Assembly (NCBI GenBank): GCA_017412245.1 | Contig: JAFPYI010000010.1 | Location: 1 to 44,875, forward strand | Source of the DNA: Paludibacteraceae bacterium | GTDB taxonomy: Bacteria; Bacteroidota; Bacteroidia; Bacteroidales; Paludibacteraceae | Direction: 5' to 3' | Length of the DNA stretch: 44,875 bases | Shown: positions 1,353 through 17,024 of the stretch, in pieces | Layout: each line of letters begins with the position of its first letter | How positions within the stretch are numbered: the first letter of the stretch is position 1 | Notes under the pieces: generated by a model | Seen by the model: only the letters and a program-made list of their open reading frames with translations | Told to the model about the DNA's origin: nothing | The model's database searches: none | Program-made: the position numbers and the translations under genes

Positions 1353-2345
1353 TCACAGCAATCTCACATTCTGCTTCTCACATTCTTTCCTCATCTCATC
1401 AGGCCATATGCTTACTTGTATCTCTCCGATATGCAATTTATGTAACAAAAGCATACATAGACGACTCTGACCTATTCCTCCTCCTATCGTCAATGGTAAT
1501 TCATTTTGAATAACCATCTTGTGGAAAGGATACTTCGCCCAATCTTCATGTCCGGTACGCCGCAATTGGCGAATCATTGACTCTGCATCTACTCGAATCC
1601 CCATAGAGGATAACTCTACTACACACCCTAATGGTTCATACCATACTAATATATCTCCATTGAGCGCCCAATCATCGTAATCTGCAGCTCGTAAGTCATG
1701 TGGCTCTCCATTAGACAATTCCTCACCTATACCTTGTACAAAAACAGCTCCATACTCGCGGCATATTTTCTCTTCTCGTTCCTTAGCGGATAACATCGGA
1801 TAACGTTGCAATAGTTCCTCGGTTGTAATAAACTGAATTTTTTGGGGCAAAAACGGATGTATCGCCGGATAATGCTCGCTCACGATATACTCGGTATTCA
1901 ATATCGATTGATATATTAATCGAACTATATCGTACAAGAAACCATCATTTCTGTCTTCTTTTCCTATCACGCGACACCAATCCCACTGATCCACGTATAA
2001 ACTATGCAAAGCATCCAACTGTTCTTCCGGCCGGATTGCATTCATATCAGTATAAATACCGCTTCCTATAGGCTCATGCATGTCACCTAACTTGAGGCGT
2101 TTCCATTTAGCTAACGAATGTACAATCTCTGCACGTTGTTCATCCATGTGCTTCACCGTAAAAGATACCGGTTGCTCCACCCCACTCAATCCATCATTCA
2201 ATCCTTGCCCAGATAACACAAACAAAGGTGCAGTAACACGACGCAAATGAAGCGCTGTAGCTAAGTTAACCTGAAACGTATCTTTAATGAGCTTAATGGC
2301 ATGTTCCGTCTCTCGTTCATTCAATATTGGATAATATTCTTTCAT
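1353..2345 (-). CDS. asnA: Aspartate-ammonia ligase (asparagine synthetase A)
   Basis: Makes asparagine from aspartate, ammonia and ATP through an aspartyl-AMP intermediate; a class II tRNA-synthetase-like fold. Signature stretches are VHSLAKWKRLKLGD, LHSLYVDQWDW, HDLRAADYDDWALNGDI, ELSSMGIRVDAE and TIGGGIGQSRLCMLLL. The start at 2345 is preferred over the ATG at 2369. It gives 330 aa, the normal family length, and forms an ATGA overlap with the stop of the upstream ATP-grasp gene. A housekeeping-type enzyme inside a glycan operon, coupled to an ATP-grasp ligase, is unusual. It may supply Asn, or an activated Asp derivative, for glycan decoration (inference). Confidence 0.93.
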   Translation of the reverse strand: MKEYYPILNERETEHAIKLIKDTFQVNLATALHLRRVTAPLFVLSGQGLNDGLSGVEQPVSFTVKHMDEQRAEIVHSLAKWKRLKLGDMHEPIGSGIYTDMNAIRPEEQLDALHSLYVDQWDWCRVIGKEDRNDGFLYDIVRLIYQSILNTEYIVSEHYPAIHPFLPQKIQFITTEELLQRYPMLSAKEREEKICREYGAVFVQGIGEELSNGEPHDLRAADYDDWALNGDILVWYEPLGCVVELSSMGIRVDAESMIRQLRRTGHEDWAKYPFHKMVIQNELPLTIGGGIGQSRLCMLLLHKLHIGEIQVSIWPDEMRKECEKQNVRLL

Positions 2346-3565
2346 ATTTCTAATACTATCTTTAACCATTTATCTACATTCGCCATCGCGTTATCCATCT
2401 CTTCCTGTGTATCGAATCTTAAAAACATATCTCCTAAGCACATTCCAGCTCCAGTAAATGGCATCACCATATCTCCAGGCTGTACATTGATTCCTAAATA
2501 CTTAAGATTACGCTCCTTTATCCGCTCATCTAACACTATTTCCTTGAATACCCCTTGTTGACCTTTACCAGCATGTACCGCATAATTGCACCAGTATCCA
2601 TCACATGACACATCTTGCGGGAACTCCAATAATGGCAAACCAACTGCATGTCGCACTTCATTCTCTACCAAGTCGATTCCGTATGCCATCCGTTGCTCCT
2701 CGGCGATGCTATTCCCCCCTCCTCGCGGTGACACCTCCATAATATACGGTTTGCCGTTAATTCCAACACAAGCCTCTATATTATATATACCGGTTCCCAT
2801 GTGTAGCAACTCAAATAATCGGTTTAACTCATCAGTCAAATAGTCTTGGTCTGTTTGAGGCATCGTACAAGGATAGATTATCTTATCTGGAATAAATGGA
2901 TTATCTGCATTCGTGTCGAACTTTTGATCCGAATAGAAATTATAATACAACTTCCCATCTATCGTAAATGGATCTGCACTGGAGCGATAACCACGTATAG
3001 TAATAAAATCCTCAATGATAAAATGCTTGTTGATAGAGTATTTCAAAGCATTTTCTATCGCGACCGATAAATCTCGCGGATTAAGAACTTTTTGTACTCC
3101 CTTACTACCTGCGGAATCTACCGGTTTTACGATTACCGGCCATTCAAAATAATCAACATCCAGCAGTGCATCAGCTGCATTCGTGTAACTCTTTGCATGA
3201 GGTGTATTGAAACCATGTTCTTGCAGAAACTGACGGAATAATCCCTTGTCTTGCAGAATACAGGTTGATTCATACGATCCTTGGAATGGTAAGCCCATCT
3301 TCTCTGCTACGTATGCAGCAGAAACAACACCCGGATCGCAAGCAAAAGACATTACTCCGGCTACCTGTTTCTCCTGCGCTACCGCCAACACCTTCTCCTT
3401 ATCTACAATGCTCACATTAACATACTCATCTGCATATTTATGCGCATAATTATCCGGCAGGAAATCAGCTGTTATCACATATAGTCCTAACTTGTGCGCC
3501 ACGTCAATCACAGGCATCAGATATCGTGACCCTCCAAGCAATAATATTTTCTTCTGTAGACTCAT
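2342..3565 (-). CDS. ATP-grasp ligase (carbamoyl-phosphate-synthase-like)
   Basis: 407 aa. Residues 1-100 form a Rossmann-like pre-ATP-grasp domain (KKILLLGGSRYLMPVID). The ATP-grasp core follows, with WPVIVKPVDSAGSKGVQKV as the ATP-binding lysine/glycine loop and PYIMEVSPRGGGNS carrying the Mg-binding Glu/Asn-type residues. Members ligate a carboxylate (often an amino acid) to an amine or thiol with ATP. It is clearly related to the C-terminal half of the PseG fusion at 7944-10064 (FPLIVKPVDSSASRGVQKV). The next gene, asnA, starts within its stop codon. Within this locus it may attach an amino-acid-like acyl group to an amino sugar; the substrate is unknown. Confidence 0.82.
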   Translation of the reverse strand: MSLQKKILLLGGSRYLMPVIDVAHKLGLYVITADFLPDNYAHKYADEYVNVSIVDKEKVLAVAQEKQVAGVMSFACDPGVVSAAYVAEKMGLPFQGSYESTCILQDKGLFRQFLQEHGFNTPHAKSYTNAADALLDVDYFEWPVIVKPVDSAGSKGVQKVLNPRDLSVAIENALKYSINKHFIIEDFITIRGYRSSADPFTIDGKLYYNFYSDQKFDTNADNPFIPDKIIYPCTMPQTDQDYLTDELNRLFELLHMGTGIYNIEACVGINGKPYIMEVSPRGGGNSIAEEQRMAYGIDLVENEVRHAVGLPLLEFPQDVSCDGYWCNYAVHAGKGQQGVFKEIVLDERIKERNLKYLGINVQPGDMVMPFTGAGMCLGDMFLRFDTQEEMDNAMANVDKWLKIVLEI

Positions 3566-3579
3566 TTATAAATCTTAAA

Positions 3580-4722
3580 TCATAATTTTACAATCGCTTT
3601 GATGACGCGATCAATATCCGTGTCTGTCAAAGCATGGTGCATGGGGAGGCAAATTACTCTATTTGCCAACTCAGTTGCTATCGGCAGGTTCTTTGGATCT
3701 GCTGTGTGGAAATCGCGATATGGTTCGAAAGTGGTAATAAGCGGATAGAAATATCGTCTACCCAATACTCCTTGCAACTTCATTTTCTCATAGAGTTCAT
3801 CCCGCGTCATACCATATTCCGATTCGTTAATCAAAATCGGATAGTACGCGCAATTCCATTCGAAACCTTGTTCTGCACCTAACGATTCGATATAGGGAAA
3901 CAAATCGATGCCTTTTATCTGCTTAATAGCCTCCGTATATCGCTTTGCCACGCGTTTACGAGCCGCGATAGCATCATCTACTTGTTGCAGATTAAGCAAG
4001 CCATAGGCTGAACGGACTTCATCCATCTTGGAGTTGATGCCCGGAGCAAGAACAACCGTCTCATCCTCAAATCCAAAGTTTTTGAGTTGGTCAATGAGCC
4101 GTTTCATCTCCGCACTATGGCACACCAACGCTCCGCCTTCAATGGTATTGTACACCTTCGTAGCATGGAAACTAATGGTGCTTATATCACCAAAATTCAA
4201 GATGGAAGCCCAAGCCCCTTCGCGGGCTTGTACTCTCACGCCAAAGGCATGTGCCGCATCGTAGATCACTTTCAGATGATGCTTCTTAGCGATGGCATCA
4301 ATCCGCTCTACGTCGCATGGACAGCCATAACAGTGAACAGGAAGGATTGCCACCGTCTTATCCGTAATAGCTGCCTCAATCTTATTAGGGTCGATATTGC
4401 CGGTAGCCGGATCTACATCCACGAACATCGGAGTCAGATGGTTCCACCAGATGGCATGGCTGGTAGCCACGAACGAATAAGGCGATGTGATTACCTCTCC
4501 CTCTCGTATATCGAGTGCCTGCAAAGCCGTGATCAGCGGCAATGTACCATTCGTAAAAAGGGACAAGTACTCCACCCCGAGATACCGGGATAATGCAAGT
4601 TCTAACTCCTGGTGGAACGTCCCCATATTCGTGATCCATTTCTTTTCCCAAATTTGTTCAAGATATTGGTTCAGTTCCTCCAAGTTGGGCAATAAAGGCG
4701 AAGTTACTGTTATATTATTCAT
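3580..4722 (-). CDS. DegT/DnrJ/EryC1 sugar aminotransferase
   Basis: 380 aa PLP-dependent aminotransferase. FTNGTLPLITALQAL is the cofactor phosphate region, IYDAAHAFGV holds the Asp that contacts the pyridine nitrogen, and SFHATKVYNTIEGGA carries the Schiff-base lysine. The opening VTSPLLPNLEELNQYLEQIWEKKW resembles VioA/FdtB-type transaminases that act on dTDP-4-keto or dTDP-3-keto-6-deoxyhexoses. It differs from the PseC paralogue in this window (10731-11924), so a second amino sugar is likely. No nucleotide-sugar dehydratase for it is visible here. It overlaps the upstream GT2 by 8 nt and precedes the ATP-grasp gene by 14 nt. Confidence 0.85.
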   Translation of the reverse strand: MNNITVTSPLLPNLEELNQYLEQIWEKKWITNMGTFHQELELALSRYLGVEYLSLFTNGTLPLITALQALDIREGEVITSPYSFVATSHAIWWNHLTPMFVDVDPATGNIDPNKIEAAITDKTVAILPVHCYGCPCDVERIDAIAKKHHLKVIYDAAHAFGVRVQAREGAWASILNFGDISTISFHATKVYNTIEGGALVCHSAEMKRLIDQLKNFGFEDETVVLAPGINSKMDEVRSAYGLLNLQQVDDAIAARKRVAKRYTEAIKQIKGIDLFPYIESLGAEQGFEWNCAYYPILINESEYGMTRDELYEKMKLQGVLGRRYFYPLITTFEPYRDFHTADPKNLPIATELANRVICLPMHHALTDTDIDRVIKAIVKL

Positions 4723-5734: not shown

Positions 5735-6919
5735 CTATTTTTTCAAAACATACTGCCAGTGATACCATCCTACTACCCATTTTACAAAATGTTTTATCTG
5801 TTTCCAATTGGTTTGATTGGGGTATGGAATCTTTTCGGTGAGTATCCCTCCATAATTTTCATAATATTGTGTTATGCGTTCATCGGCACGCCAACCTGGT
5901 GCATTATGATTATCTATCAACCAATTAGTAACAATTGTATCTGGAGAGATCTTTTTTAAGGTCCATAAGGCTGATGATAAAAAGCCATAGATTGCAAATG
6001 GTCTTATTCCCTTTGTAAGAAAATAATACTCAATGGCGCATGATAGTCGCTTATATTTTATAGTAAGCATTTCGCAAAATAATGGTACATATTCATCCGT
6101 GTCACGTCCATGAGGAATATAGACTATTTCTGCATTTGGATATCTCTTTCTTACATCTACTAATTTTGCCCAAATAATTGCCTCGAAGATTTCCGGTTTT
6201 AATCCGTTGGTCCGACTCTTTATTGATGGACCTACAATATAAACAGCATTATCTCCATTGGGTTTGTCAAATATAGCATGAATATTAGAAAATTTGTTGG
6301 GATATATGCATACTTTACGATTTTGTGTATAATGGAATAGAGAAAACAGAAAATCATTATCATAAATTCCTTTTTGCTTAAAAATATGATCTATCCTCTT
6401 TTTTTTATCCATGTATGGTTTATACGTTGTTCGACGCCATACTTCTTTCATACCCCAATCAGTAGGTTCCTCGGTATTACTCATAATGCCATTAAGCATA
6501 GCAATAGTGGCGCATCCATCATCTAAATATACGATGACAGAATCTTCTGTTGCATAGTGAACTCCCAATGCTCTCTGCCCCAACGCATAGTAATCGCCTA
6601 CCATGATGCGACGATACCGTATAGATTCCTTCTCTTGAAAAATTCCTTTTGATGCAAATAAATCCAAATATATTTCTGCAATATTATCTGCTTCAATGGT
6701 TCTATATTTCAATTGCATCATACGCAACATCTCCATAACTTGTACGACTCTGCTATCATTCGGTTCAATGCCGATTATGAGTAGATAGTCCTCTATCTCA
6801 AACTCTTTAATCGCCTCGGCAGCACATAAAATTTGCAAAGGAGAATCCACTATAAAAGCAGTTGGTGTGCCCTTTGAAAAAGCTAATTCTTTGTAATATG
6901 AGTATTTTGAATGTTGCAT
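5735..6919 (-). CDS. Polysialyltransferase-like nonulosonate transferase
   Basis: 394 aa. The N-terminus contains AFIVDSPLQILCAAEAI, the opening of bacterial alpha-2,8-polysialyltransferase / GT52-type proteins. Three family signatures are visible in order: an acidic (D/E)(D/E)G motif as DDG at 133-135; an HP-type motif at 270-271 that reads His-Gly inside VYIPHGRDTDEY; and an S-S/T motif as SS at 315-316. The family transfers CMP-activated nine-carbon acids. Placement directly after pseI and downstream of pseF points to CMP-pseudaminate, or a derivative, as donor (inference). The gene looks more A+T-rich than the pse genes, which suggests separate acquisition. The substrate and the Gly in place of Pro need testing. 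Confidence 0.68.
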   Translation of the reverse strand: MQHSKYSYYKELAFSKGTPTAFIVDSPLQILCAAEAIKEFEIEDYLLIIGIEPNDSRVVQVMEMLRMMQLKYRTIEADNIAEIYLDLFASKGIFQEKESIRYRRIMVGDYYALGQRALGVHYATEDSVIVYLDDGCATIAMLNGIMSNTEEPTDWGMKEVWRRTTYKPYMDKKKRIDHIFKQKGIYDNDFLFSLFHYTQNRKVCIYPNKFSNIHAIFDKPNGDNAVYIVGPSIKSRTNGLKPEIFEAIIWAKLVDVRKRYPNAEIVYIPHGRDTDEYVPLFCEMLTIKYKRLSCAIEYYFLTKGIRPFAIYGFLSSALWTLKKISPDTIVTNWLIDNHNAPGWRADERITQYYENYGGILTEKIPYPNQTNWKQIKHFVKWVVGWYHWQYVLKK

Positions 6920-6928
6920 ATGTATAAA

Positions 6929-7942
6929 TTAAAAATTTACGTATTCCAATTCCATTCTATCGCCAAATTTCAGGTCGCGATTGACGCGTTTGCCTAATAT
7001 CTCCGGCAGGTATTTCGGATGTAAACCAAAGCCGGGACGGACGGAACGGACGTTCTGCTCTGTGATCATATCTCCGGCTTTCATATCTTCCGCCACATAC
7101 AGCGAACGGCTTGCAGTGCGGCTATTCTTCATTTTCTCCGTGAGCGAATAATCAACCTTACCCATTGCAGCCTCTGCCAACCTTACTTTCTGAACCATAT
7201 CGCGGAATTCAGTCTCATCCATTGAGAAGGTAGCATCTTCGCTTTCAACCTCTTTATTGAGGATGAAATGCTTCTCTATCATCACTGCGCCATTCGCTGC
7301 CGCAAGCACCGGGACCATGGCGCCAATAGTATGGTCGCTCAATCCGGCCTTTACACCAAAGCGTTCTGCGAGATCCCGAATCATTATCACATTCGCCTCC
7401 TCCACGGGTGCGGGATAGGCTGAGGTACACTTAAGCAGCGTAATATCATTATTGCCTACTCTACGACAAGCATCTACGGCAAGTTGTATATCCTCTATTT
7501 CTGCGATGCCGGTAGCGATGATCATGGGTTTCATCTTGGAGGCAGCATATTCAATCAGCGGGATATCGGTAATCTCAAAAGATGCAATCTTATACATAGG
7601 TGCGTCGAGCGACTCAAGGAAGTCAATTGCAGTCTTATCGAAAGGAGAGGAGAAACATACTAAGCCCTCGTCATGAGCGACTTTGAACAGCTCCTCATGC
7701 CACTCCCAGGGAGTATAAGCTTTCTGATACAACTCATAAAACTTCCTACCATCCCAAATGGAGTTTTCGTTAATCACGAAGTCAGGCTTGTCGCAATCCA
7801 ACGTGATCGTGTCAGCCGTATACGTCTGCAATTTGATTGCATCCGCACCGGCTCTTTTCGCTGCTTTTATCGTCTCGATAGCGACGGACTTGTCACCTCC
7901 ATGATTGGCCGACATCTCGGCTACTATCATACATTTTCCCAT
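6929..7942 (-). CDS. pseI: Pseudaminic acid synthase
   Basis: 337 aa, NeuB superfamily. Condenses 2,4-diacetamido-2,4,6-trideoxy-L-altrose (or an analogue) with phosphoenolpyruvate to give the nine-carbon acid. A TIM barrel starts with IVAEMSANHGGD. KLQTYTADTITL, FSSPFDKTAIDFLE, YKIASFEITD, LLKCTSAYPAP, GLSDHTIG and IEKHFIL follow in family order. The C-terminal ~60 residues are an antifreeze/SAF domain (SVRPGFGLHPKYL, ILGKRV). The AEMSANHGG and TYTADTITL wording favours PseI over NeuB and LegI. The gap to the upstream fusion gene is 1 nt. Confidence 0.93.
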   Translation of the reverse strand: MGKCMIVAEMSANHGGDKSVAIETIKAAKRAGADAIKLQTYTADTITLDCDKPDFVINENSIWDGRKFYELYQKAYTPWEWHEELFKVAHDEGLVCFSSPFDKTAIDFLESLDAPMYKIASFEITDIPLIEYAASKMKPMIIATGIAEIEDIQLAVDACRRVGNNDITLLKCTSAYPAPVEEANVIMIRDLAERFGVKAGLSDHTIGAMVPVLAAANGAVMIEKHFILNKEVESEDATFSMDETEFRDMVQKVRLAEAAMGKVDYSLTEKMKNSRTASRSLYVAEDMKAGDMITEQNVRSVRPGFGLHPKYLPEILGKRVNRDLKFGDRMELEYVNF

Positions 7943-7943
7943 A

Positions 7944-10064
7944 TTATTTGATGGTATTTAGTATTTGTTTCATTTCCGTTAATGTATCCGTTTGCAGGAT
8001 GATATACCCTAACCTATCCAACGAACTACGTATCTGTTTCTTGGAATACGGTTCGATCTCATAGCGTCTGATAGCCGGATGACAGGTATGGATAAAGTCC
8101 TCACAACGATGGTAGTTCTCCGTATTGAGGAACTGCACCGCGGAGCATTTCTTAAACTTGATCTCCAAATCAGTCGGTTCACCAATCGATACGCGAATCA
8201 GATTCTCCATCATATTCACTCCGGTGGATAGCGGCACCAGATCGGATGTAATATAGTCGCCACCTAAGCGGCATGCGGACTCTATGATAAATGCGCCATC
8301 TGCATTTACCTTAACCTCCGTATGGTTGGGACAGTTATTAGAGCCAAGCGCTTTGGTTGCTGCGAGCACTTCGGCTTCTATCAGATGCTTCACATCATCC
8401 GAGATCATTGCCGGTTCGATATGGGTATCCTCCACGAAACAGCCATATTCCTCGCCTATCGTTTGCTTCTGCGTGATGGCAATGATATGCGTCTCTCCAT
8501 TCTGCGAGAAGGACTCCACGCTGAACTCCTGGCCTTCGATGAACTCTTCGATGATCACCGTATGCGAACGGGAGTTGCAGTCTGCCTCGCAAATAGCCGA
8601 TTTCAGTTCTTCTGCGTTCTCCACTTTCTGCACACCGCGACTGGCTGATGAATCCACCGGCTTGACGATCAGAGGAAATAAGGCATTGTTCATCAACTCC
8701 TTCGGGCACTCACCATTCTTCACAATACGATTGAGCGGCGTCTTGATGCTATGATTTTTCAAGCACTCACGTTGGAGGTATTTGTTAGTGCACAACCGAG
8801 CTGTCTCAATGGACATTGCTGGAAGATGGAACTTCTCGCCTACCGCTGCTACTACATTCACCGGTGCATCGGAAGTGGTAAGGATACCATCTATCGGATG
8901 ATGCTGCACATAAGTCATCAGCGCATCCATATCCATCGTGCTAATCACCAAACACTCTTTCGCTTCTATGAACCCCGGAGCATTGGGATCCATATCGGCA
9001 ACGATGGTATATAAGCCCATTTGATTCGCACATTGGATGATAGGCACTTGCATCTGGCCTCCACCTAAAATCAATATTTTCTTTGGTTCAACACACATAT
9101 TCTTAAAAATCTGAACTACACGTTCCGGTATGTTCATAAAGTTCACATCTCGACGGATATATTGGAAGATTTGCTCGGTAAACTCCTGTGCAGCAATAGT
9201 CTCCAATGAGTCCGACTGCATCATATCACCCAAACCGATCACATACTGATTAGCGGCATACCATTCATAATCTTCCTTCTGATTATCTATATAATACCCG
9301 CTCAATATATTCGCGCCACAAGCCAACGCTTCTCGCGTCATTGTTGATGCCGGAAGAACAACCACACCGGCAGAGGCGAACAACTCGCTCAGTTGGTTTG
9401 CAGACACATTACGATGATACTCCACCCTTTTATCTTCCACCAACGGCCACCGATACGCATCGCCGATAATCACCTCGATATGGTCGATACATTGATTCTG
9501 CAATAAAGCATCCACGTATTTCCGTGTCAGGTTATTGGCATCCGCGCCACCCATTGCCACAACGGCAGTGCGATAATCTTTCTCCAATTGAGTGTGTTGA
9601 GTCAAAAATGGCTTCCGAAGTAACGAATATTCCAGACCGCCATACATCTTCGTATATATTTCTGTGTCATATTGTGATACGACAACTCCCGGAGATTGGC
9701 ATATAATAGCATCTGCCAAATAATGGATCTCATGCATATCATCGATACAGATAAGTTTGCAACCCTTGGCCTTGATGGCTCGCTGATAGTCGGTGGTGAA
9801 GAAGTAGTTATCGAGCACCACTATCTCATCGCCATGCAGATACTCCAAGAACTTGCCAAACTTGGTATTATCAGACGGAAGCGCTACTATCTGACAGATT
9901 TCTTTAGCCTCTTGCACTTGATAAGCCGTTGGCGATTTCGTAAACATCGTGCAATCGAAGTCCTGCTTCAGCATATCTGCCAAAGCCAAACTCCGAATAT
10001 AATGTCCGTACCCTATATTAGGACCGACATCTGCACGAAAATATATTTTACGCCTATTTGCCAC
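7944..10064 (-). CDS. pseG: PseG-type UDP-sugar hydrolase fused to ATP-grasp ligase
   Basis: 706 aa, about twice the usual PseG length. Residues 1-~325 are PseG: FRADVGPNIGYGHYIRSLALA carries the catalytic His (H21), with AVVAMGGADANN near 168 and VVLPASTMTREALACG near 235. This half removes UDP from the 2,4-diacylamino-trideoxy-altrose intermediate. Residues ~327-706 are a complete ATP-grasp protein: KKILILGGGQMQ, FPLIVKPVDSSASRGVQKV near 463, and acidic metal ligands in HTEVKVNADG...FIIESACRLGG (583-602). It starts with GTG at 10064, overlapping pseF by 11 nt. No PseH acetyltransferase is present in the locus, so the ligase half may acylate the 4-amino group (inference). Confidence 0.88.
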   Translation of the reverse strand: MANRRKIYFRADVGPNIGYGHYIRSLALADMLKQDFDCTMFTKSPTAYQVQEAKEICQIVALPSDNTKFGKFLEYLHGDEIVVLDNYFFTTDYQRAIKAKGCKLICIDDMHEIHYLADAIICQSPGVVVSQYDTEIYTKMYGGLEYSLLRKPFLTQHTQLEKDYRTAVVAMGGADANNLTRKYVDALLQNQCIDHIEVIIGDAYRWPLVEDKRVEYHRNVSANQLSELFASAGVVVLPASTMTREALACGANILSGYYIDNQKEDYEWYAANQYVIGLGDMMQSDSLETIAAQEFTEQIFQYIRRDVNFMNIPERVVQIFKNMCVEPKKILILGGGQMQVPIIQCANQMGLYTIVADMDPNAPGFIEAKECLVISTMDMDALMTYVQHHPIDGILTTSDAPVNVVAAVGEKFHLPAMSIETARLCTNKYLQRECLKNHSIKTPLNRIVKNGECPKELMNNALFPLIVKPVDSSASRGVQKVENAEELKSAICEADCNSRSHTVIIEEFIEGQEFSVESFSQNGETHIIAITQKQTIGEEYGCFVEDTHIEPAMISDDVKHLIEAEVLAATKALGSNNCPNHTEVKVNADGAFIIESACRLGGDYITSDLVPLSTGVNMMENLIRVSIGEPTDLEIKFKKCSAVQFLNTENYHRCEDFIHTCHPAIRRYEIEPYSKKQIRSSLDRLGYIILQTDTLTEMKQILNTIK

Positions 10065-10734
10065 TCAACAATTGGTATTTAAGTTCTGCAAGTTTCCAGT
10101 CCGTCTCGGTATCAATATCTTGCACACGTTCTTCGGATAAGATGATGGCACCTACGAATTTCTCCGTGAACTTACCATCCGTCAGTTTATACCAATAGAA
10201 CGTACCCGAATCATGGTACTCCTTCGGCAGATCCTGACTACGACTGTATTCAAACTCCGGCCAATGACGTTTCATCGAACCGTCTTCTGCTACATCTAAG
10301 CACCGCCAAATCGGATACGAGAACTCCACCACCGGATAGACACAATCGAACTTTGAGTTATTCAAGAGTTGCAGCGCCTCAGCCAAATCATTCGATGAGA
10401 TTAACGGAGCGGTAGCGTAGACGCAGCACATATTATCAAACACCTTTCCTCGCTTTTGATACTCATTCAGCACCTCCACTAACACATCATCCGAAGATGC
10501 GAAATCATTCGCAGTCTCTGCACTTCGCATGAAAGGTACAGACGCACCATACTGCTTGGCTATCTCCGCAATCTGCTCATCGTCCGTCGATACCATTACC
10601 TCATCAAAGAGTCCACTTTTTAGCGCAGCCTCTATCGAATAGGCGATAATAGGCTTGCCCAAGAACTCTTTGATGTTCTTATGCGGGATGCGCTTACTGC
10701 CTCCGCGTGCCGGTATAATAGCTAAGTTTTTCAT
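10054..10734 (-). CDS. pseF: Pseudaminic acid cytidylyltransferase
   Basis: 226 aa. Activates the nonulosonic acid with CTP, giving the CMP-sugar used by the transferase. The N-terminal LAIIPARGGSKRIPHKNIKEF is the CMP-nonulosonate synthetase nucleotide loop. DEVMVSTDDEQIAEIA and the ATAPLISSNDLAEAL segment follow. Its size and place next to pseC fit PseF rather than NeuA. The start at 10734 overlaps the pseC stop by 4 nt (ATGA). Confidence 0.92.
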   Translation of the reverse strand: MKNLAIIPARGGSKRIPHKNIKEFLGKPIIAYSIEAALKSGLFDEVMVSTDDEQIAEIAKQYGASVPFMRSAETANDFASSDDVLVEVLNEYQKRGKVFDNMCCVYATAPLISSNDLAEALQLLNNSKFDCVYPVVEFSYPIWRCLDVAEDGSMKRHWPEFEYSRSQDLPKEYHDSGTFYWYKLTDGKFTEKFVGAIILSEERVQDIDTETDWKLAELKYQLLSGK

Positions 10735-11924
10735 TCTTCACACATCGGTTTTGCTTCACGTCCGCACTTGGCATAAAAGTCCCAAATGGTGTCGATGACA
10801 TATTGCTGCTCCTCTTCCGTCAACGAAGGATACATCGGCAATGCAAGACAGCGCTTATAGTAATCCTCTGCCACCGGACATTCACCTTCTTTATGCCCCA
10901 ACGACTTATAGTACGGCATCGTATGAGCGGGGATATACAGCACTTGCGAGTAAATCTGATGCTCACGCAGATAGTCATACAATGCCTTTCTGCGCATCGG
11001 ATGCACCTCTATCACGTACAAATGGAAGGCGTGAACAATTCCTTCTTGTCTGAACGGAATCAGTATCGGCAGCTTATCCAATGCCTCATCGTATTTGCGT
11101 GCGATTTCGTTACGACGCTCAATGCTCCAATCGAGTCGCTTCAACTGGCTCGATGCCAATGCTGCCTGGAACTCCGTAATACGGTAGTTATAGCCCAACT
11201 CCTGCATCTCATAATACCAGCCTCCGTCGTTGCGCGTCAGACGCTCCGGATCTTTGGTGATACCATGCGTGCGGTACAATGCCACTTTCTCGTACAAGTC
11301 CTTACGGTTGGTCGTGATGCAACCACCCTCTCCGGCTGCGATATGCTTCACCGGATGGAACGAGAATACACTCAAATCGGCATACTTGCAGTTGCCAATC
11401 ATCTGCTTCTCGCCCTTCGAGTCCGTCCACAATCCACCCGGAGCATGGCAACAGTCAATCACCGTTGCAAAACCATACTCTTGTGCGAGTTTATGCAGAC
11501 GCTCCTCATCGATTGGATATCCGGCAAAGTCCACCGGTACAACGGCTTTATACGTTCCCTTCGGCGATGCTTTCAGAATCTCCTCCAGCTTATCCAGATC
11601 CATCAGGAAGGTTTTGCTGTCGATATCGCAGAACGTGATCTCCGCACCTTGATAACGGAAACCGTTGGCGCTTGCCACAAACGTGATAGGTGTCGTAATC
11701 ACCTTATCTCCCGGCTGGATATCAAGCGCCATAGCGCAGAGATGGAGCGCAGCCGTTCCGTTGCTGACCATACATGCATACTCGCAGCCCAGATATGCCG
11801 CGAACTCCTTCTCGAACTGCGGTATCCGCGGACCTTGCGTCAGGTAGTCGGACTTCAACGTCTCAACCACCGCTTGTATGTCTTCGTCAGTAATTAACTG
11901 ATGTCCGTATGAAATTGGTTTCAT
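10731..11924 (-). CDS. pseC: UDP-4-amino-4,6-dideoxy-AltNAc aminotransferase
   Basis: 397 aa DegT-family PLP enzyme. It transfers an amino group, normally from glutamate, to C4 of UDP-2-acetamido-2,6-dideoxy-arabino-hexos-4-ulose, the PseB product. MVSNGTAALHLCAMAL near residue 55 binds the PLP phosphate, VIDCCHAPGG holds the ring-nitrogen Asp region, and SVFSFHPVKHIAAGEGGC carries the PLP lysine. YNYRITEFQAALASSQL is the family C-terminal motif. It overlaps pseB by 4 nt. Confidence 0.94.
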   Translation of the reverse strand: MKPISYGHQLITDEDIQAVVETLKSDYLTQGPRIPQFEKEFAAYLGCEYACMVSNGTAALHLCAMALDIQPGDKVITTPITFVASANGFRYQGAEITFCDIDSKTFLMDLDKLEEILKASPKGTYKAVVPVDFAGYPIDEERLHKLAQEYGFATVIDCCHAPGGLWTDSKGEKQMIGNCKYADLSVFSFHPVKHIAAGEGGCITTNRKDLYEKVALYRTHGITKDPERLTRNDGGWYYEMQELGYNYRITEFQAALASSQLKRLDWSIERRNEIARKYDEALDKLPILIPFRQEGIVHAFHLYVIEVHPMRRKALYDYLREHQIYSQVLYIPAHTMPYYKSLGHKEGECPVAEDYYKRCLALPMYPSLTEEEQQYVIDTIWDFYAKCGREAKPMCEE

Positions 11925-12943
11925 TTTACTTCAAAATTTGGGTCAACAAATTGTTTGATCTTTGCGCGCATCGAATCAACAGTCTCCCACTCTTCGTTAT
12001 TGTCGGACGAGTAATGGAAGCCGAAGGGTACCGGCTTCGCATTGTGGTGCGCGATGAACTCCTCACGAGTATGCGTGAACGATACGGACGGAAGGATCAC
12101 ATAATAGCGACCCAAGTCAATCGTATCCAATGCATCCGTGACGGTAATCATCTCCTCATGCAGTTTCTCACCCGGACGGATACCCACTTCCTTCTGCGGG
12201 ATGTTCGGTGCAATAGCCGTTGCCACATCCGTAATCTTATAACTCGGAATCTTCGGGATGAAGATCTCGCCACCCAGATGATGACCAATAGCGTACATCA
12301 CCATCGCCACACCTTCTTCCAACGAGATATTGAATCGCGTCATGCGCATATCAGTGATCGGCAAAAACTCCGCTCCCTCATCACGCTTGCGGATAAAGAA
12401 CGGTATCACACTACCGCGACTACCCATTACGTTACCGTACCGTACCACCGAGAAACGGATATCTTTGCTGCCGCGGATGTTATTTGCTGCCGTAAAGAGT
12501 TTATCACTCGTCAGTTTCGTCGCTCCATACAGGTTAATCGGAGCACAAGCCTTATCGGTACTCAGTGCCACCACGTCATGCACACCGCATGCCAAGGCAG
12601 CCTTAATCACGTTCTGCGCACCATGTACATTCGTCTTGATGCACTCCTCGGGATTGTACTCAGCCGTATCCACCTGCTTAATAGCTGCTGCATGAATAAT
12701 CACATCCACTCCTTCGCATGCTCTCGTCAGACGCTCCAAGTCACGCACATCACCGATAAAGAACCGTAACTGCGGATACCTGTCATGCGGATACTTCTGC
12801 TGCATATCATACTGCTTCAACTCTCCGCGAGAGTAGATGATGATTTTCTTCACTTGTGGATAATCCCGCAGGATGACTTCCACAAACTTCTTTCCGAAAC
12901 TACCGGTGCCACCGGTAATCAAAACTACTTTATTATTCAGCAT
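11921..12943 (-). CDS. pseB: UDP-GlcNAc 4,6-dehydratase (5-inverting)
   Basis: 340 aa, short soluble SDR of the FlaA1/PseB type with no transmembrane domain. First step of pseudaminic acid synthesis: dehydration with C5 inversion of UDP-GlcNAc. VVLITGGTGSFGKKFVE is the NAD(P) loop. HAAAIKQVDTAEYNP and the catalytic TDKACAPINLYGATK (Asp, Lys and Tyr of the inverting dehydratases) follow, then RYGNVMGSRGSVIPFF. It opens the biosynthetic block immediately after the export genes (18 nt after wzt). Confidence 0.95.
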   Translation of the reverse strand: MLNNKVVLITGGTGSFGKKFVEVILRDYPQVKKIIIYSRGELKQYDMQQKYPHDRYPQLRFFIGDVRDLERLTRACEGVDVIIHAAAIKQVDTAEYNPEECIKTNVHGAQNVIKAALACGVHDVVALSTDKACAPINLYGATKLTSDKLFTAANNIRGSKDIRFSVVRYGNVMGSRGSVIPFFIRKRDEGAEFLPITDMRMTRFNISLEEGVAMVMYAIGHHLGGEIFIPKIPSYKITDVATAIAPNIPQKEVGIRPGEKLHEEMITVTDALDTIDLGRYYVILPSVSFTHTREEFIAHHNAKPVPFGFHYSSDNNEEWETVDSMRAKIKQFVDPNFEVK

Positions 12944-12961: not shown

Positions 12962-14236
12962 TCATACAAATTTCCAATCGAGCAGCGTACTCATATAGCC
13001 GGGACGTTTATCGCCTCGGAATGTACGATCATCCGTCATATTAAATACACAAACATCAAAAGGAGAATCCACATTCCACCCGCTAATATTTTGACTACTT
13101 GTAAAATTGAGATAAACAGAATAACTACCAGGTGCTAAACTACGTTTCGGAATCAGAATATCTATTTGTGATTCTCCCAACGGCAGAGTCTCCAGCTTGT
13201 TCATCACTATATCATTGCTATCCGACACCCATGCAGCTACGCCATCGGCTTTCGTAAACTGTAGATAACCATATATACCCGGCACGCGATTCTTCACATG
13301 CGCAGTCATGCGTACATGCCATTCTTCATCGCAAGAGAAGAGGTTTTTCCCTTCCCCTTTGCTATCCAGCAATTCCACTTTCGTGATCTGAAAATCCTTA
13401 TTTGGATTGAACTCACGTTCCCATGCTGCTCCGAGGTTAACGAGCGAATCGGAGAGGTACATATCGCAGATGGAATTAACCTCTCCATCCGCTTTTATAC
13501 TACCATTCTCCAATAGTATACCACGCTTGCAGAGGCTACGGATACTGCCCATATTGTGGCTCACAAACAATACTGTACGTCCCTCTCCAGAACTAACATC
13601 CTTCATTTTTCCGATGGCCTTTTTCTGAAATTCAGCATCTCCTACCGCCAATACCTCATCAACTACGAGAATTTCAGGATCGAGGAATGCAGCTACGGCA
13701 AAACCGAGACGAACAGTCATACCGCTCGAATAACGCTTCACAGGCGTATCAATATATCGTTCACAGCCGGAGAAGTCGATAATTTCATCTAATTTCGCTT
13801 GAATCTCTTGGCGTGTCATGCCAAGAATAGCGCCATTCATGAAGATATTCTCGCGGCCTGTCATTTCGCCATGGAAACCGGTTCCGACTTCCAACAACGA
13901 ACCAATACGACCATGAGCACGTATAACACCAGTCGTCGGACCGGTTACACGGCTCAACAATTTCAACAGTGTGGACTTACCGGCGCCGTTCTTACCGATA
14001 ATACCTACCACGTCGCCTTGCTCCACCTTGAAATTGATATCCTTCAACGCCCATACGTACTCCGAGTTACCCTTCGTACTCCGGTCGTTGGTCTCACCTA
14101 TCTTAAGATACGGATCCTCTTTACCTAAAATGCTCGTCTGCCACCATCGGTTAATATCATGCCGTAACGTACCCGTTGATACCAGCCCTAAACGATATTG
14201 CTTACTCACATTCTCAAACTCAATTGCATTTGCCAT
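12962..14236 (-). CDS. wzt: Polysaccharide ABC exporter ATPase with C-terminal domain
   Basis: 424 aa. Residues 1-~255 are the nucleotide-binding domain: Walker A GIIGKNGAGKSTLLKL, signature RYSSGMTVRLGFAVAA, Walker B EILVVDEVLAVGD, switch His in VLFVSHNMG. Residues ~265-424 form a beta-rich extension like the Wzt carbohydrate-binding domain, which recognises the finished, end-capped glycan in O-antigen exporters. It acts with the Wzm-like permeases encoded just upstream. The first 215 residues are nearly identical to the broken copy at 16,377-17,024, which points to a recent duplication. Confidence 0.92.
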   Translation of the reverse strand: MANAIEFENVSKQYRLGLVSTGTLRHDINRWWQTSILGKEDPYLKIGETNDRSTKGNSEYVWALKDINFKVEQGDVVGIIGKNGAGKSTLLKLLSRVTGPTTGVIRAHGRIGSLLEVGTGFHGEMTGRENIFMNGAILGMTRQEIQAKLDEIIDFSGCERYIDTPVKRYSSGMTVRLGFAVAAFLDPEILVVDEVLAVGDAEFQKKAIGKMKDVSSGEGRTVLFVSHNMGSIRSLCKRGILLENGSIKADGEVNSICDMYLSDSLVNLGAAWEREFNPNKDFQITKVELLDSKGEGKNLFSCDEEWHVRMTAHVKNRVPGIYGYLQFTKADGVAAWVSDSNDIVMNKLETLPLGESQIDILIPKRSLAPGSYSVYLNFTSSQNISGWNVDSPFDVCVFNMTDDRTFRGDKRPGYMSTLLDWKFV

Positions 14237-14258
14237 ATATTTTCGATTTTTAATAATT

Positions 14259-15116
14259 CTAAATTGTGTCGATAAAGAACTTTTCTTTTCGATTAAATAG
14301 TGCTATGCCAATCATCAATAACACCACCATACATCCCGCACTATATGCAAGCGATGTCCATGAGAACTCTCCTGCTCCGTACGCTCCTACCTTGAATGTC
14401 TCAATGATTGATGTCAACGGATTATAGAGCATGATTTTATGCAATGTCGGATCCGTTACGTAACTCAACGGATACACAATCGGTGTTGCGTACATCCACA
14501 GCGAAACGAACACCCCGAAGAAATTCACCAAGTCTCTATATTTCGTAGTTAACGATGATATGATCAATCCCAAACCCAAAGCCAATCCTTGCATCAAAAA
14601 CACCAGTACCGGAAACAGCAGCAGATACCATGTTGGACGCAGCTCAAGCCCTTTTGCTACATAGAAGATATACACCGCCGCAAACGTACATAACTGCAAC
14701 GAGAAGCGGAATAGCTTCGACACCAACATCGAAATAGGCATCACCATTCGGGGGAAATAAACCTTTCCAAAGATTCCTGCATTAATTTGGAGAGTTCGAG
14801 ATGCAGACATTAAGCATGTTGAAAAATACTCCCACAAGCAGATTCCACTCAGATAGAACACCGGTTGCGGAACACCATCCGTTGGAATTCCGGCTATACG
14901 ACCAAAGACGATGATATACATGAACATTGAGAACAATGGTCCCACAAAGTACCAACCCATACCAAAGATCGTCTGCTTGAACTGCACCGTGATATCACGC
15001 TTGATAAACAGCCATATCAGGTACCGTTTCGCCCATACATCCCTCAATCCAAAACCTTTTGCATACGATTTCGGAGTTATCACCGTTGTCCAATATATAT
15101 CCTTTTCACTCTTCAC
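14259..15116 (-). CDS. wzm: Wzm-like ABC-2 polysaccharide exporter permease
   Basis: 285 aa. An N-terminal cytoplasmic segment (VITPKSYAKGFGLRDVW) and the amphipathic region IKRDITVQFKQTIFGMGWY precede about six membrane helices, with PTWYLLLFPVLVFLMQGLALG in the middle. This is the ABC2_membrane/TagG/Wzm family. No ATG is available; the start must be GTG. Four 7-bp repeats (15106-15133), each containing GTG on the minus strand, overlap the start. It is paralogous to the next gene upstream. The two may form a heterodimer around Wzt, or one may be redundant. Confidence 0.88.
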   Translation of the reverse strand: MKSEKDIYWTTVITPKSYAKGFGLRDVWAKRYLIWLFIKRDITVQFKQTIFGMGWYFVGPLFSMFMYIIVFGRIAGIPTDGVPQPVFYLSGICLWEYFSTCLMSASRTLQINAGIFGKVYFPRMVMPISMLVSKLFRFSLQLCTFAAVYIFYVAKGLELRPTWYLLLFPVLVFLMQGLALGLGLIISSLTTKYRDLVNFFGVFVSLWMYATPIVYPLSYVTDPTLHKIMLYNPLTSIIETFKVGAYGAGEFSWTSLAYSAGCMVVLLMIGIALFNRKEKFFIDTI

Positions 15117-15133
15117 TATTCACTTTTCACTAT
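15106..15133 (-). repeat. Heptanucleotide tandem repeat over a start codon
   Basis: Four direct copies of TCACTnT (plus-strand reading) with no gaps. On the coding strand each unit reads as (A/T/G)A-GTGA, so it offers a GTG in a different phase. The repeat spans the GTG start and the translation-initiation region of the permease at 14259-15116. Copy-number slippage would change spacing and start choice. Confidence 0.8.
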
Positions 15134-15138
15134 TATCT

Positions 15139-15993
15139 TTAAACAGTGTCCATGAAGGATTTTTGCACTTTGTTAAATAGCATCAACCCTATCACCAGCA
15201 GCACCAATGTAAACGCTGCGCTATATCCCAACCACAACCAACTGAACTGTCCTTGCCCCAGCAACGAATACTTAACCGCTTCCATTACCGGTGTCACAGG
15301 ATTCAGACTCATCGCCAAATATAACTTCTCATTCGTCACCATGCTCAACGGATATATAACCGGTGTCACATTCACCCACAGCGAGATGATCTTATTCAGC
15401 ATAATCTGCAAATCCCTATACTTCGTCGTCATCGATGATAAGATCATTCCGAATCCCACAGCCATCAACGCCAACAGCACAATCAGCAACGGGAACAACA
15501 CCACTTGCCAATGAAGCTCCAACTCTGTACCGGTGGCTGCATAGTAGATATAGAAGCACACAAAGATACCCAACTGGATTGCCAGACTCAACATGTTCGT
15601 CGTCACTGCCACCAGCGGCATGATAATTCTCGGGAAATAAACCTTGCCGAAGATATCTGCATTCGTCACAAATGAGTTTGACGTAGAGCTCAGGCAACTG
15701 GCAAAATACCCCCAAATAGAAATACCCAACAAATAGAACAAGATCGGAGGCACACCGTCTGTTGGAATACCTGCAATACCACCAAACACCGTCACATACA
15801 CAATCACACTCAGCACCGGTGTGATGATGAACCACAACGGACCTAATATCGTCTGTTTGTATGCTACACGGAAAGCACGCTGAACAAACAGCTCGAACAT
15901 GTCGCGGTAGCGCCATATCTCCCTCCAATCAATCGCCAACAACTTATCTTTAGGCGTAATGATCAAATCCCAGTTTTGCTTTCCTTCACTCAC
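15139..15993 (-). CDS. Second Wzm-like ABC-2 exporter permease
   Basis: 284 aa from a GTG at 15993. The open frame runs further up to 16071, but that extension crosses the -7 box of the promoter and cannot be translated from it. The 15993 start gives WDLIITPKDKLLAIDWREIW, which aligns with the N-terminus of the sister permease. FRVAYKQTILGPLWFIITPV precedes about six membrane helices, including HWQVVLFPLLIVLLALMAVG. It is the first gene of the glycan operon, about 70 nt after the predicted transcription start. Confidence 0.87.
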   Translation of the reverse strand: MSEGKQNWDLIITPKDKLLAIDWREIWRYRDMFELFVQRAFRVAYKQTILGPLWFIITPVLSVIVYVTVFGGIAGIPTDGVPPILFYLLGISIWGYFASCLSSTSNSFVTNADIFGKVYFPRIIMPLVAVTTNMLSLAIQLGIFVCFYIYYAATGTELELHWQVVLFPLLIVLLALMAVGFGMILSSMTTKYRDLQIMLNKIISLWVNVTPVIYPLSMVTNEKLYLAMSLNPVTPVMEAVKYSLLGQGQFSWLWLGYSAAFTLVLLVIGLMLFNKVQKSFMDTV

Positions 15994-16022
15994 TCTTTTT
16001 GCTTCTTTGCAACTCGCTTCCT

Positions 16023-16055
16023 CATACGTGTATGTCACGCATACATACGTACACA
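16023..16055 (-). other. Alternating purine-pyrimidine leader tract
   Basis: Two abutting perfect pyrimidine-purine alternating runs of 13 nt (16023-16035) and 20 nt (16036-16055). They lie in the 5' leader of the glycan operon between the predicted transcription start and the GTG start. Comparable tracts sit in other leaders in this window (18975-19006, 42181-42196, 35214-35258). Confidence 0.6.
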
Positions 16056-16068
16056 AAATTTGTGGCTG

Positions 16069-16100
16069 CAAAGGTACAAAAAAAAAATGACATATACAAA
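16069..16100 (-). promoter_or_regulatory. Promoter of the glycan operon
   Basis: Minus strand: TTTG (16097-16100), 20 nt, TACCTTTG (16069-16076). This is a full match to the Bacteroidota -33/-7 consensus, with transcription expected from about 16062. A dyad CATATAC-AAAC-GTATATG (16091-16108) is centred on the -33 element and could be an operator. Confidence 0.82.
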
Positions 16101-16198
16101 CGTATATGCATAATTCTTCATTTTTTCTTCATTTTGCAAGCAAAAAGCGAACTTTTGCGATTTCTTTATGCTGCTTTTCTGTAATTTCCTTTTTCACT

Positions 16199-17024
16199 TG
16201 CCATATTATGACTAACGAAGAGGACTGTTCGGCCTTGGCCTATCGCGGAACTATCCTCGATACATGTACCCAAATTGCATTTCGGTAGGAAGTACTCGGA
16301 TGCTCTCGCTCCTCCCCATCGCAAATCATGCTGCTTTACGTTGGGGACCCCAGTTGGCACCGAGTGCCCTTATCTTTACGTCTTTCATCTTGCCGCTGGC
16401 TTTCTTTTGGAACTCCGCATCGCCGACAGCGAGAACTTCGTCTACGACGAGGATCTCGGGTTCGAGGAAGGCTGCTACGGCAAAGCCCAGACGGACAGTC
16501 ATTCCCGAGCTATAGCGCTTAACCGGGGTGTCGATATACCGTTCGCAGCCGCTGAAGTCAATGATCTCATCGAGCTTGGACTGGATCTCATTACGCGTCA
16601 TGCCGAGGATGGCGCCGTTCATGAAAATATTCTCACGACCCGTCATCTCGCCATGGAAGCCCGTGCCGACTTCGAGCAGGGAGCCGATACGGCCGTGGGC
16701 TCTTATGATCCCCGTTGTAGGGCCTGTGACGCGGGAGAGGAGTTTTAAGAGGGTCGATTTTCCGGCACCGTTCTTACCGATGATGCCGACGACGTCGCCC
16801 TGCTCGACCTTGAAGTCGATATCGCGGAGGGCCCAGACGTATTCGGAGGTGCCCTTCGAGGCACGGTCGTTGGTCTCGCCGATCTTCAGATACGGATCCT
16901 CCTTGCCGAGGACGTTGGTGATCCAAAATCTTCTTATGTCATGTGAGAGAGTCTTGGTTGATACCAATCCGAGGCGATACTGTTTACTTACATGCTCAAA
17001 CTCTATAGCTATGTTATTTCCCAT
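16199..17024 (-). pseudogene. Broken second wzt ATPase gene
   Basis: The intact reading frame 16326-17024 (232 aa) is nearly identical to the wzt at 12962-14236 through Walker A, signature, Walker B and the D-loop, up to GKMKDV at about 16377. There the homology stops and the frame ends after 16 unrelated residues. About 140 nt further on, in the same strand and order, GRTVLFVSHNM (16202-16236) reappears: the switch-histidine motif that should follow four residues after GKMKDV. The rest of the NBD and the carbohydrate-binding domain are missing. Without the H-loop the product should not hydrolyse ATP productively. It reads as a duplicated wzt inactivated by an insertion and a deletion. Confidence 0.82.
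16237..16376. repeat. Short palindromic insertion inside broken wzt
   Basis: About 130 nt of sequence absent from the intact wzt lies between two contiguous wzt segments. It contains two adjacent perfect palindromes, TGGGG-A-CCCCA (16342-16352) and GGCAC-CGA-GTGCC (16356-16368), as expected for a REP- or MITE-like element. No transposase and no clear target-site duplication are visible. Confidence 0.5.

Follow-up and report, generated by a model that had tools for sequence, protein, structure and literature searches.

The canonical route to cytidine monophosphate (CMP)-activated pseudaminic acid (Pse), CMP-Pse5Ac7Ac, runs through PseB, PseC, PseH, PseG, PseI and PseF. Here we describe a variant of this pathway in a Paludibacteraceae bacterium (assembly GCA_017412245.1, contig JAFPYI010000010.1, positions 1 to 44,875; this whole stretch of 44,875 nucleotides is called the window). 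In its pse operon the gene of the acetyltransferase PseH is missing, and the uridine diphosphate (UDP)-sugar hydrolase PseG is fused to an ATP-grasp protein, predicted to be a carboxylate-amine ligase that stands in the place of PseH.

Several described systems come close to this arrangement. Shewanella oneidensis is reported to lack clear orthologues of PseH, PseG, PseI and PseF, and its flagellin-modification operon includes an ATP-grasp_4 protein, SO_3265 (SfmE), whose deletion lowers the flagellin mass, slightly less than is seen in other mutants; the 274-Da nonulosonic acid of this organism is most likely Pse with a single acetyl group, bearing a moiety of 236–264 Da (PMC3765264). SfmE therefore resembles the window protein as an ATP-grasp_4 member in a nonulosonic-acid locus for which a clear PseH orthologue is reported lacking, whereas the absence of clear PseG, PseI and PseF orthologues and of any described fusion sets S. 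oneidensis apart. In Clostridioides difficile, mutants in CDR20291_0245 are without the terminal peptidylamido-sugar; the gene product is likewise a PF13535 protein, and its gene lies two genes away from one for an FdtB-like aminotransferase, but the accessible text does not describe the sugar as a nonulosonic acid (PMC5207246). A 7-formamido Pse-type acid is known in Pseudoalteromonas, and aminoacyl amino sugars are listed in the same paper (PMC3210612); an alanyl-bearing legionaminic acid, Leg5Ac7AcAla, is cited for Vibrio vulnificus (PMC7371886); and the enzyme responsible for the 7-N-glyceroyl Pse of Tannerella forsythia has been reported as unknown (PMC6120980, PMC6388019). Geobacillus loci hold PseC, PseF, PseG and PseI without PseH, and formyltransferases in some strains (PMC5109656). 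A formyltransferase in the PseH slot is comparable to the window ligase as another acylating enzyme at this position, and differs from it in fold and donor. No description of a PseG–ATP-grasp pair was found in the accessible text of the openly licensed literature searched.

The window operon lies on the minus strand in the order pseB-pseC-pseF-PseG/ATP-grasp fusion-pseI and is tightly packed: pseB and pseC overlap by 4 bp, pseC and pseF by 4 bp, pseF and the fusion by 11 bp, and 1 bp separates the fusion from pseI. It encodes the inverting UDP-GlcNAc 4,6-dehydratase PseB (11921–12943, 340 amino acids (aa); TIGR03589, 529.5 bits, cut-off 407.75), the UDP-4-amino-4,6-dideoxy-L-AltNAc transaminase PseC (10731–11924, 397 aa; TIGR03588, 468.3 bits, cut-off 423.5), the pseudaminic acid cytidylyltransferase PseF (10054–10734, 226 aa; TIGR03584, 284.8 bits, cut-off 205.7) and, just beyond the segment 7944–12943, the pseudaminic acid synthase PseI (6929–7942, 337 aa; TIGR03586, 500.5 bits, cut-off 340.25). 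These four proteins, each above the curated cut-off of its own NCBIfam family, tie the locus to the canonical pathway. The fusion itself (7944–10064) is a 706-aa open reading frame (ORF) with a GTG start and no stop inside, in which aa 1–321 form the PseG half (9102–10064) and aa 322–706 the ATP-grasp half (7944–9101). All canonical Pse genes are thus present except that of PseH: neither the ORFs of the operon nor a Pfam scan of it revealed a GNAT or other acetyltransferase gene, and the ATP-grasp ligase occupies the PseH position. An earlier note on this DNA, made from the letters alone, had described the five coupled pse genes and the missing acetyltransferase, and both descriptions hold.

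The PseG domain (TIGR03590) covers aa 6–265 of the fusion with 144 bits, which is below the curated cut-off of 153.55. Nevertheless, the half can be aligned to a UDP-sugar hydrolase of known structure, 3hbm (E 2.1e-13), its G-x-G-H motif is intact, and H21 is invariant across the five PseGs compared; the N-terminal histidine of this motif has a catalytic role. The idea that the low score marks a new substrate was dropped, because PseGs fused to PseH in congeners score alike (144.5 bits in locus L103 and 142 bits in L106; loci outside the window carry L numbers).

In the C-terminal half, the ATP-grasp_4 domain (PF13535) is found at aa 463–606 with 87.3 bits (gathering cut-off 27). When these 385 aa were compared with solved structures using phmmer, the nearest sequence was the L-amino-acid ligase BL00235 (3vot, aligned over residues 25–305 of the half, E 1.8e-33), followed by 4dim (aligned over residues 4–382 of the half, E 1.7e-30). 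In the numbering of the ligase half, K107, K147, E185, E274 and R278 are invariant in 32 of 32 aligned rows and E262 is kept in 29 of 32; these catalytic columns include the ATP-binding lysines and the acidic metal ligands. The E-V-G-A-R stretch of 3vot aligns with E-S-A-C-R of the window ligase. This likeness to BL00235 is one of sequence, and the window ligase differs in its setting, a nucleotide-sugar operon, and in its fusion to PseG. Judged by these residues, the ATP-grasp domain that the earlier note had called complete is indeed so, and is predicted to be active.

The following scheme can be proposed. PseB and PseC yield UDP-4-amino-4,6-dideoxy-L-AltNAc, as is established for these families. 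The ATP-grasp half would then use ATP to turn a free carboxylic acid into an acyl-phosphate and couple it to the C4 amine, which is the step that PseH performs with acetyl-CoA. The PseG half would subsequently remove UDP, if acylation precedes hydrolysis as we suppose, after which pyruvate and then CMP are attached by the activities established for the PseI and PseF families. In the resulting Pse5Ac, N7 would bear an acyl group other than acetyl. We regard it as reasonably probable that the fusion catalyses two steps in this way, within a modified CMP-pseudaminic-acid pathway, with its ligase replacing the PseH step.

Relatives of the fusion were searched in 247 genomes of the order (E <= 1e-30), 296 of the phylum (1e-40), 200 of the family (1e-25) and 178 of the same genus (1e-55); a search of viral contigs returned no relative. 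The earlier note had proposed to look for further PseG–ATP-grasp fusions. No second one appeared, the fusion being seen once only, and elsewhere the two parts are adjacent or near genes: three loci hold an unfused ligase together with PseG. Their ligases are the closest kin of the window ligase, at 76% identity in a genome of the same genus and family (G1091, locus L224), 48% in Marinifilum breve JC075 (L182, found by a contig scan with two short patterns only, which misses much) and 46% in a metagenome-assembled genome of the same order and another family (G497, L051; f1 versus f153). The order in M. breve is pseB, pseC, aldo/keto reductase, short-chain dehydrogenase, cytidylyltransferase, PseG, ligase and PseI, with PseG and ligase as separate genes about 15 bp apart. 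In L051 it is pseB, pseC, pseF, pseG, a sulfotransferase-like gene, one gene without assignment, ligase and pseI. No PseH was seen in either of these two pse loci. The L224 locus reads pseB, pseC, a hexapeptide (serine-acetyltransferase-like) gene, pseF, ligase, a PseH frame, an epimerase-like gene, PseG and PseI. Its PseH frame (9099–9458) matches profile positions 2–109 of 156 with 64 bits and then ends; since the remainder can be read only in another frame, either the gene has decayed or the sequence contains an error.

The four ligases form one clade (100/100) in a tree of 34 rows, and each of them has PseG and PseI in its locus. An earlier tree of 40 rows, without L224, had united the window, L182 and L051 at 98/93; for the smaller tree L175, L177, L120, L121, L187, L186_12270, L063 and L066 were removed and L224 and L229 added. 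When a profile built from the four ligases was searched against 393 genomes of the order, its own two members there scored 722 and 672 bits and the runner-up among the matches listed scored 319 bits, a gap which indicates that the subfamily is distinct and rare. A single origin for all pse-linked ATP-grasps was also considered and is unsupported: placing L017 with the clade is not rejected (p-AU 0.465) but is not demonstrated either. L017, from the same phylum and outside the class sample described below, has pseI, PseG (TIGR03590, 101 bits) and an ATP-grasp gene in a row, and no PseH of at least 80 bits within four genes.

Within the genus, 10 of the 178 genomes match the fusion at E <= 1e-55, a cut at which ligase-free pse loci would go unnoticed if their PseG is divergent. 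Nine have a pse locus; in the tenth (G1153) the only match is an ATP-grasp that does not belong to a pse locus (L229). Six of the nine loci carry PseH, two carry the ligase (the window and L224), and one is cut by the contig end (L228). PseH is a separate gene in L102 and is fused to the C-terminus of PseG in L103, L106, L225, L226 and L227. In a PseG tree of 39 rows, the window PseG falls into a clade of ten same-genus and same-family PseGs (100/99), seven of which are PseG-PseH fusions, and is far from the PseGs of L182, L051 and L224. Comparison with the ligase tree indicates that the two halves of the fusion therefore have different histories; compared with congeners, a ligase that accompanies pse loci appears to have taken the place of a PseH module here.

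The acylation slot is variable also in a wider sample. From 395 genomes of the class, 70 had a PseG at E <= 1e-10, and their 70 loci, which exclude the window's own, were counted over all ORFs; 39 are complete pse loci by the thresholds used. Counted with a PseH profile that is broad, 27 of the 39 have only a PseH-like GNAT, 3 a GNAT plus a formyltransferase, 2 only a formyltransferase and 7 neither, so that with 30 GNATs, 2 formyltransferases alone and 7 loci with neither, the PseH slot can be described as a variable acylation step. PseG and PseH are fused in 17 of the 39, which together with the five congeners bears out the statement in the earlier note that such fusions exist elsewhere. A formyltransferase (PF00551) in the PseH slot was found in L020, L068 and L112. 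The seven loci with neither enzyme are L130 (on a 5.1-kb contig), L152, L153 (which has a hexapeptide protein), L154, L163, L167 and L172. In L154, which is without PseH or formyltransferase by profiles, a different ATP-grasp (PF02655/PF15632; 11016–11963) lies between PseG and PseI and is perhaps a second, independent recruitment. WbqC-family genes (PF08889) adjoin PseI in L163 (4983–5684) and L167 (10076–10807), also loci without PseH by profiles, and are a possible further type of acylating enzyme. L175, not a complete locus, has an ATP-grasp (144 bits); its PseG and PseI are divergent, and PseH was not seen there.

A number of observations weigh against the replacement of PseH by the ligase. 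None of the 39 complete class loci carries an ATP-grasp of the window's family (at least 120 bits), so that nothing in that sample bears on an anti-correlation with PseH. In L177, counted as not complete with a PseI-like gene of 215 bits, an unbroken PseH (45.2 bits with TIGR03585, 131 with the PseH profile built for this analysis) and an ATP-grasp (181 bits; distant, outside the ligase clade) share one pse locus. Since an ATP-grasp can thus coexist with PseH, a strict form of the anti-correlation that the earlier note proposed to look for is not supported as a rule. The break in the L224 PseH could be an assembly error. Within its PseG clade the window branches off first, as sister to the nine remaining members (93/96), followed by L102, whose PseG is a stand-alone protein; that the ligase was swapped in for PseH is for this reason only something we infer, and the ancestral PseG of the window lineage may have been unfused. 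Furthermore, the available genome of the window organism (1.417 Mb) is 62.02% complete, and a PseH may sit in the 38% outside the search. Away from the pse locus, the L183 genome, which is apparently the L051 genome, shows PseH-profile (TIGR03585) matches of 37.6 bits and lower, the best of which lies inside the range of slot GNATs.

The last two points, together with L177, would fit a different division of labour, in which a PseH or promiscuous GNAT encoded elsewhere acetylates the 4-amine and the ATP-grasp later decorates another amine, exposed by deacetylation or belonging to an extra amino group; redundancy or promiscuity at this step is reported for Caulobacter (PMC7591256). In the available part of the window genome, TIGR03585 finds a single match of 21.9 bits, a 153-aa GNAT on a different contig, and PF13302 finds none. 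As a yardstick, eight slot GNATs of related loci score 29.4–95.8 bits with TIGR03585, one of them above the cut-off of 93.1; further scores are 99.8 for L225, 89.8 for L226, 81 for L227 and, besides L177, 24.3 for L131, so that slot GNATs span 24.3–99.8 bits. The weakest, that of L131, fits a spermidine acetyltransferase profile better (33.7 bits). The intact PseH proteins of six congeners reach 61.9–99.8 bits and would have shown; a PseH of this kind is accordingly absent from the available genome part, while a very divergent one, scoring as low as that of L131, could escape. An acetyltransferase elsewhere is in our judgement unlikely, given that the fusion sits exactly where congeners have PseH, that the L182 and L051 loci are without PseH and that the L224 PseH is broken. 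The proposal of the earlier note that the ligase replaces PseH is hence retained in part: the position of PseH in congeners, the occurrence of the whole clade in pse loci and the nearest solved structure, an L-amino-acid ligase, speak for it, and L177 with both enzymes and the L224 ligase beside a broken PseH speak against it.

Two further analyses concerned the function of the ligase. A DegT-type aminotransferase gene lies within three genes of 22 of 31 ligase-family ORFs, as compared with 142 of 394 other ORFs (Fisher p 0.0002), and is an immediate neighbour of 10 of 31 against 52 of 394 (p 0.008). The count used 31 stretches, with L017, L051, L068 and L182 excluded and with L016, L063 and L066 including some nonulosonic-type genes; the association is biased, as the ligase is central in each stretch. 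A PseI signature for a bulkier acyl group was also sought: columns 5, 31 and 68 gave weak and unconvincing signals, and no PseI residue separates ligase-type from PseH-type loci (4 versus 36 rows).

Activation of carboxylates, the chemistry of ATP-grasp enzymes, could in principle be directed to the sugar itself, the ligase activating the C1 carboxyl of the nonulosonic acid and joining it in amide linkage to an amine, for instance an amino acid. The products would be comparable to uronic-acid amides, and an alanine amide of a hexuronic acid has been described (PMC3210612). This is most improbable, considering that the fusion partner, PseG, acts before the C1 carboxylate exists, that the 4-amine would stay unacylated and that the wider ligase family occurs near aminotransferases.

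Under the favoured reading, N-acylation of the 4-amine in place of PseH, the donor can be narrowed to some extent. No donor-making gene was seen in the operon, nor, by eye, one common to the four ligase loci, which points to a common metabolite as the probable acid, either an amino acid, in view of the L-amino-acid ligase among solved structures that is closest in sequence, or a hydroxy acid, for example glycerate. It is a plausible proposition, to which we give slightly less than an even chance, that a mobile ATP-grasp subfamily replaces the PseH step and attaches an amino or hydroxy acid, taken up in its free form, to the UDP-sugar to give an aminoacyl- or glyceroyl-type 7-N-acyl Pse, with fusion to PseG in one species. 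If true, this would be a further chemistry for the acylation step of Pse, beside those of GNAT and formyltransferase, and could explain how pseudaminic acids of Bacteroidota acquire a glyceroyl group. A ligase using free acid and ATP in the PseH slot offers a candidate chemistry that can be tested and may serve as a one-pot enzyme in making new Pse derivatives; the organism itself likely makes an unusual version of this sialic-acid-like sugar.

At the junction of the fusion, the PseG part stops about where the stand-alone PseG of L102 stops, the ligase part starts at an in-frame ATG, and there is no clear extra linker. A single-base error could create or mask such a join, and the 706-aa frame might be a sequencing or assembly accident in which adjacent PseG and ligase genes were joined by a lost stop. 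The single occurrence of the fusion, the short distance between the two genes in M. breve and the end of the L102 PseG near the start of the ligase part would all agree with this; the frame, on the other hand, is open across the join, and we consider an accident decidedly unlikely. It would leave the pathway reading unchanged, because the unfused PseG/ligase pairs support that reading too.

Other genes around the operon are recorded here as separate observations. A 394-aa protein (5735–6919, minus strand), next in the operon after pseI, has no Pfam or NCBIfam match; its homologues lie near pseI in the congeneric loci L224 and L225, and it is possibly a Pse transferase. By eye, two pairs of ABC exporter genes lie in tandem at 12962–17024, the second ATPase ORF (16326–17024) being 232 aa long as against 424 aa for the first. 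A second ATP-grasp (2342–3565) lies between a DegT aminotransferase (3580–4722) and AsnA (1353–2369; TIGR00669, 354.8 bits); its closest relative in the tree, 58% identical, is from a Fibrobacter metagenome-assembled genome in which a DegT gene also adjoins it, and the region 1353–4722 is likely another sugar N-acylation cassette. Tandem ATP-grasp fusions occur near an aminotransferase in same-genus genomes (L120, 8331–10640, 769 aa; L121, 9126–11459, 777 aa). Finally, Pfam detects defence-like genes (SIR2/nSTAND, AIPR and AAA_15 ATPases) inside pse operons of the same genus, namely in L102 (9185–11512), L106 (10896–12764 and 14073–15350) and L228 (7279–8619).

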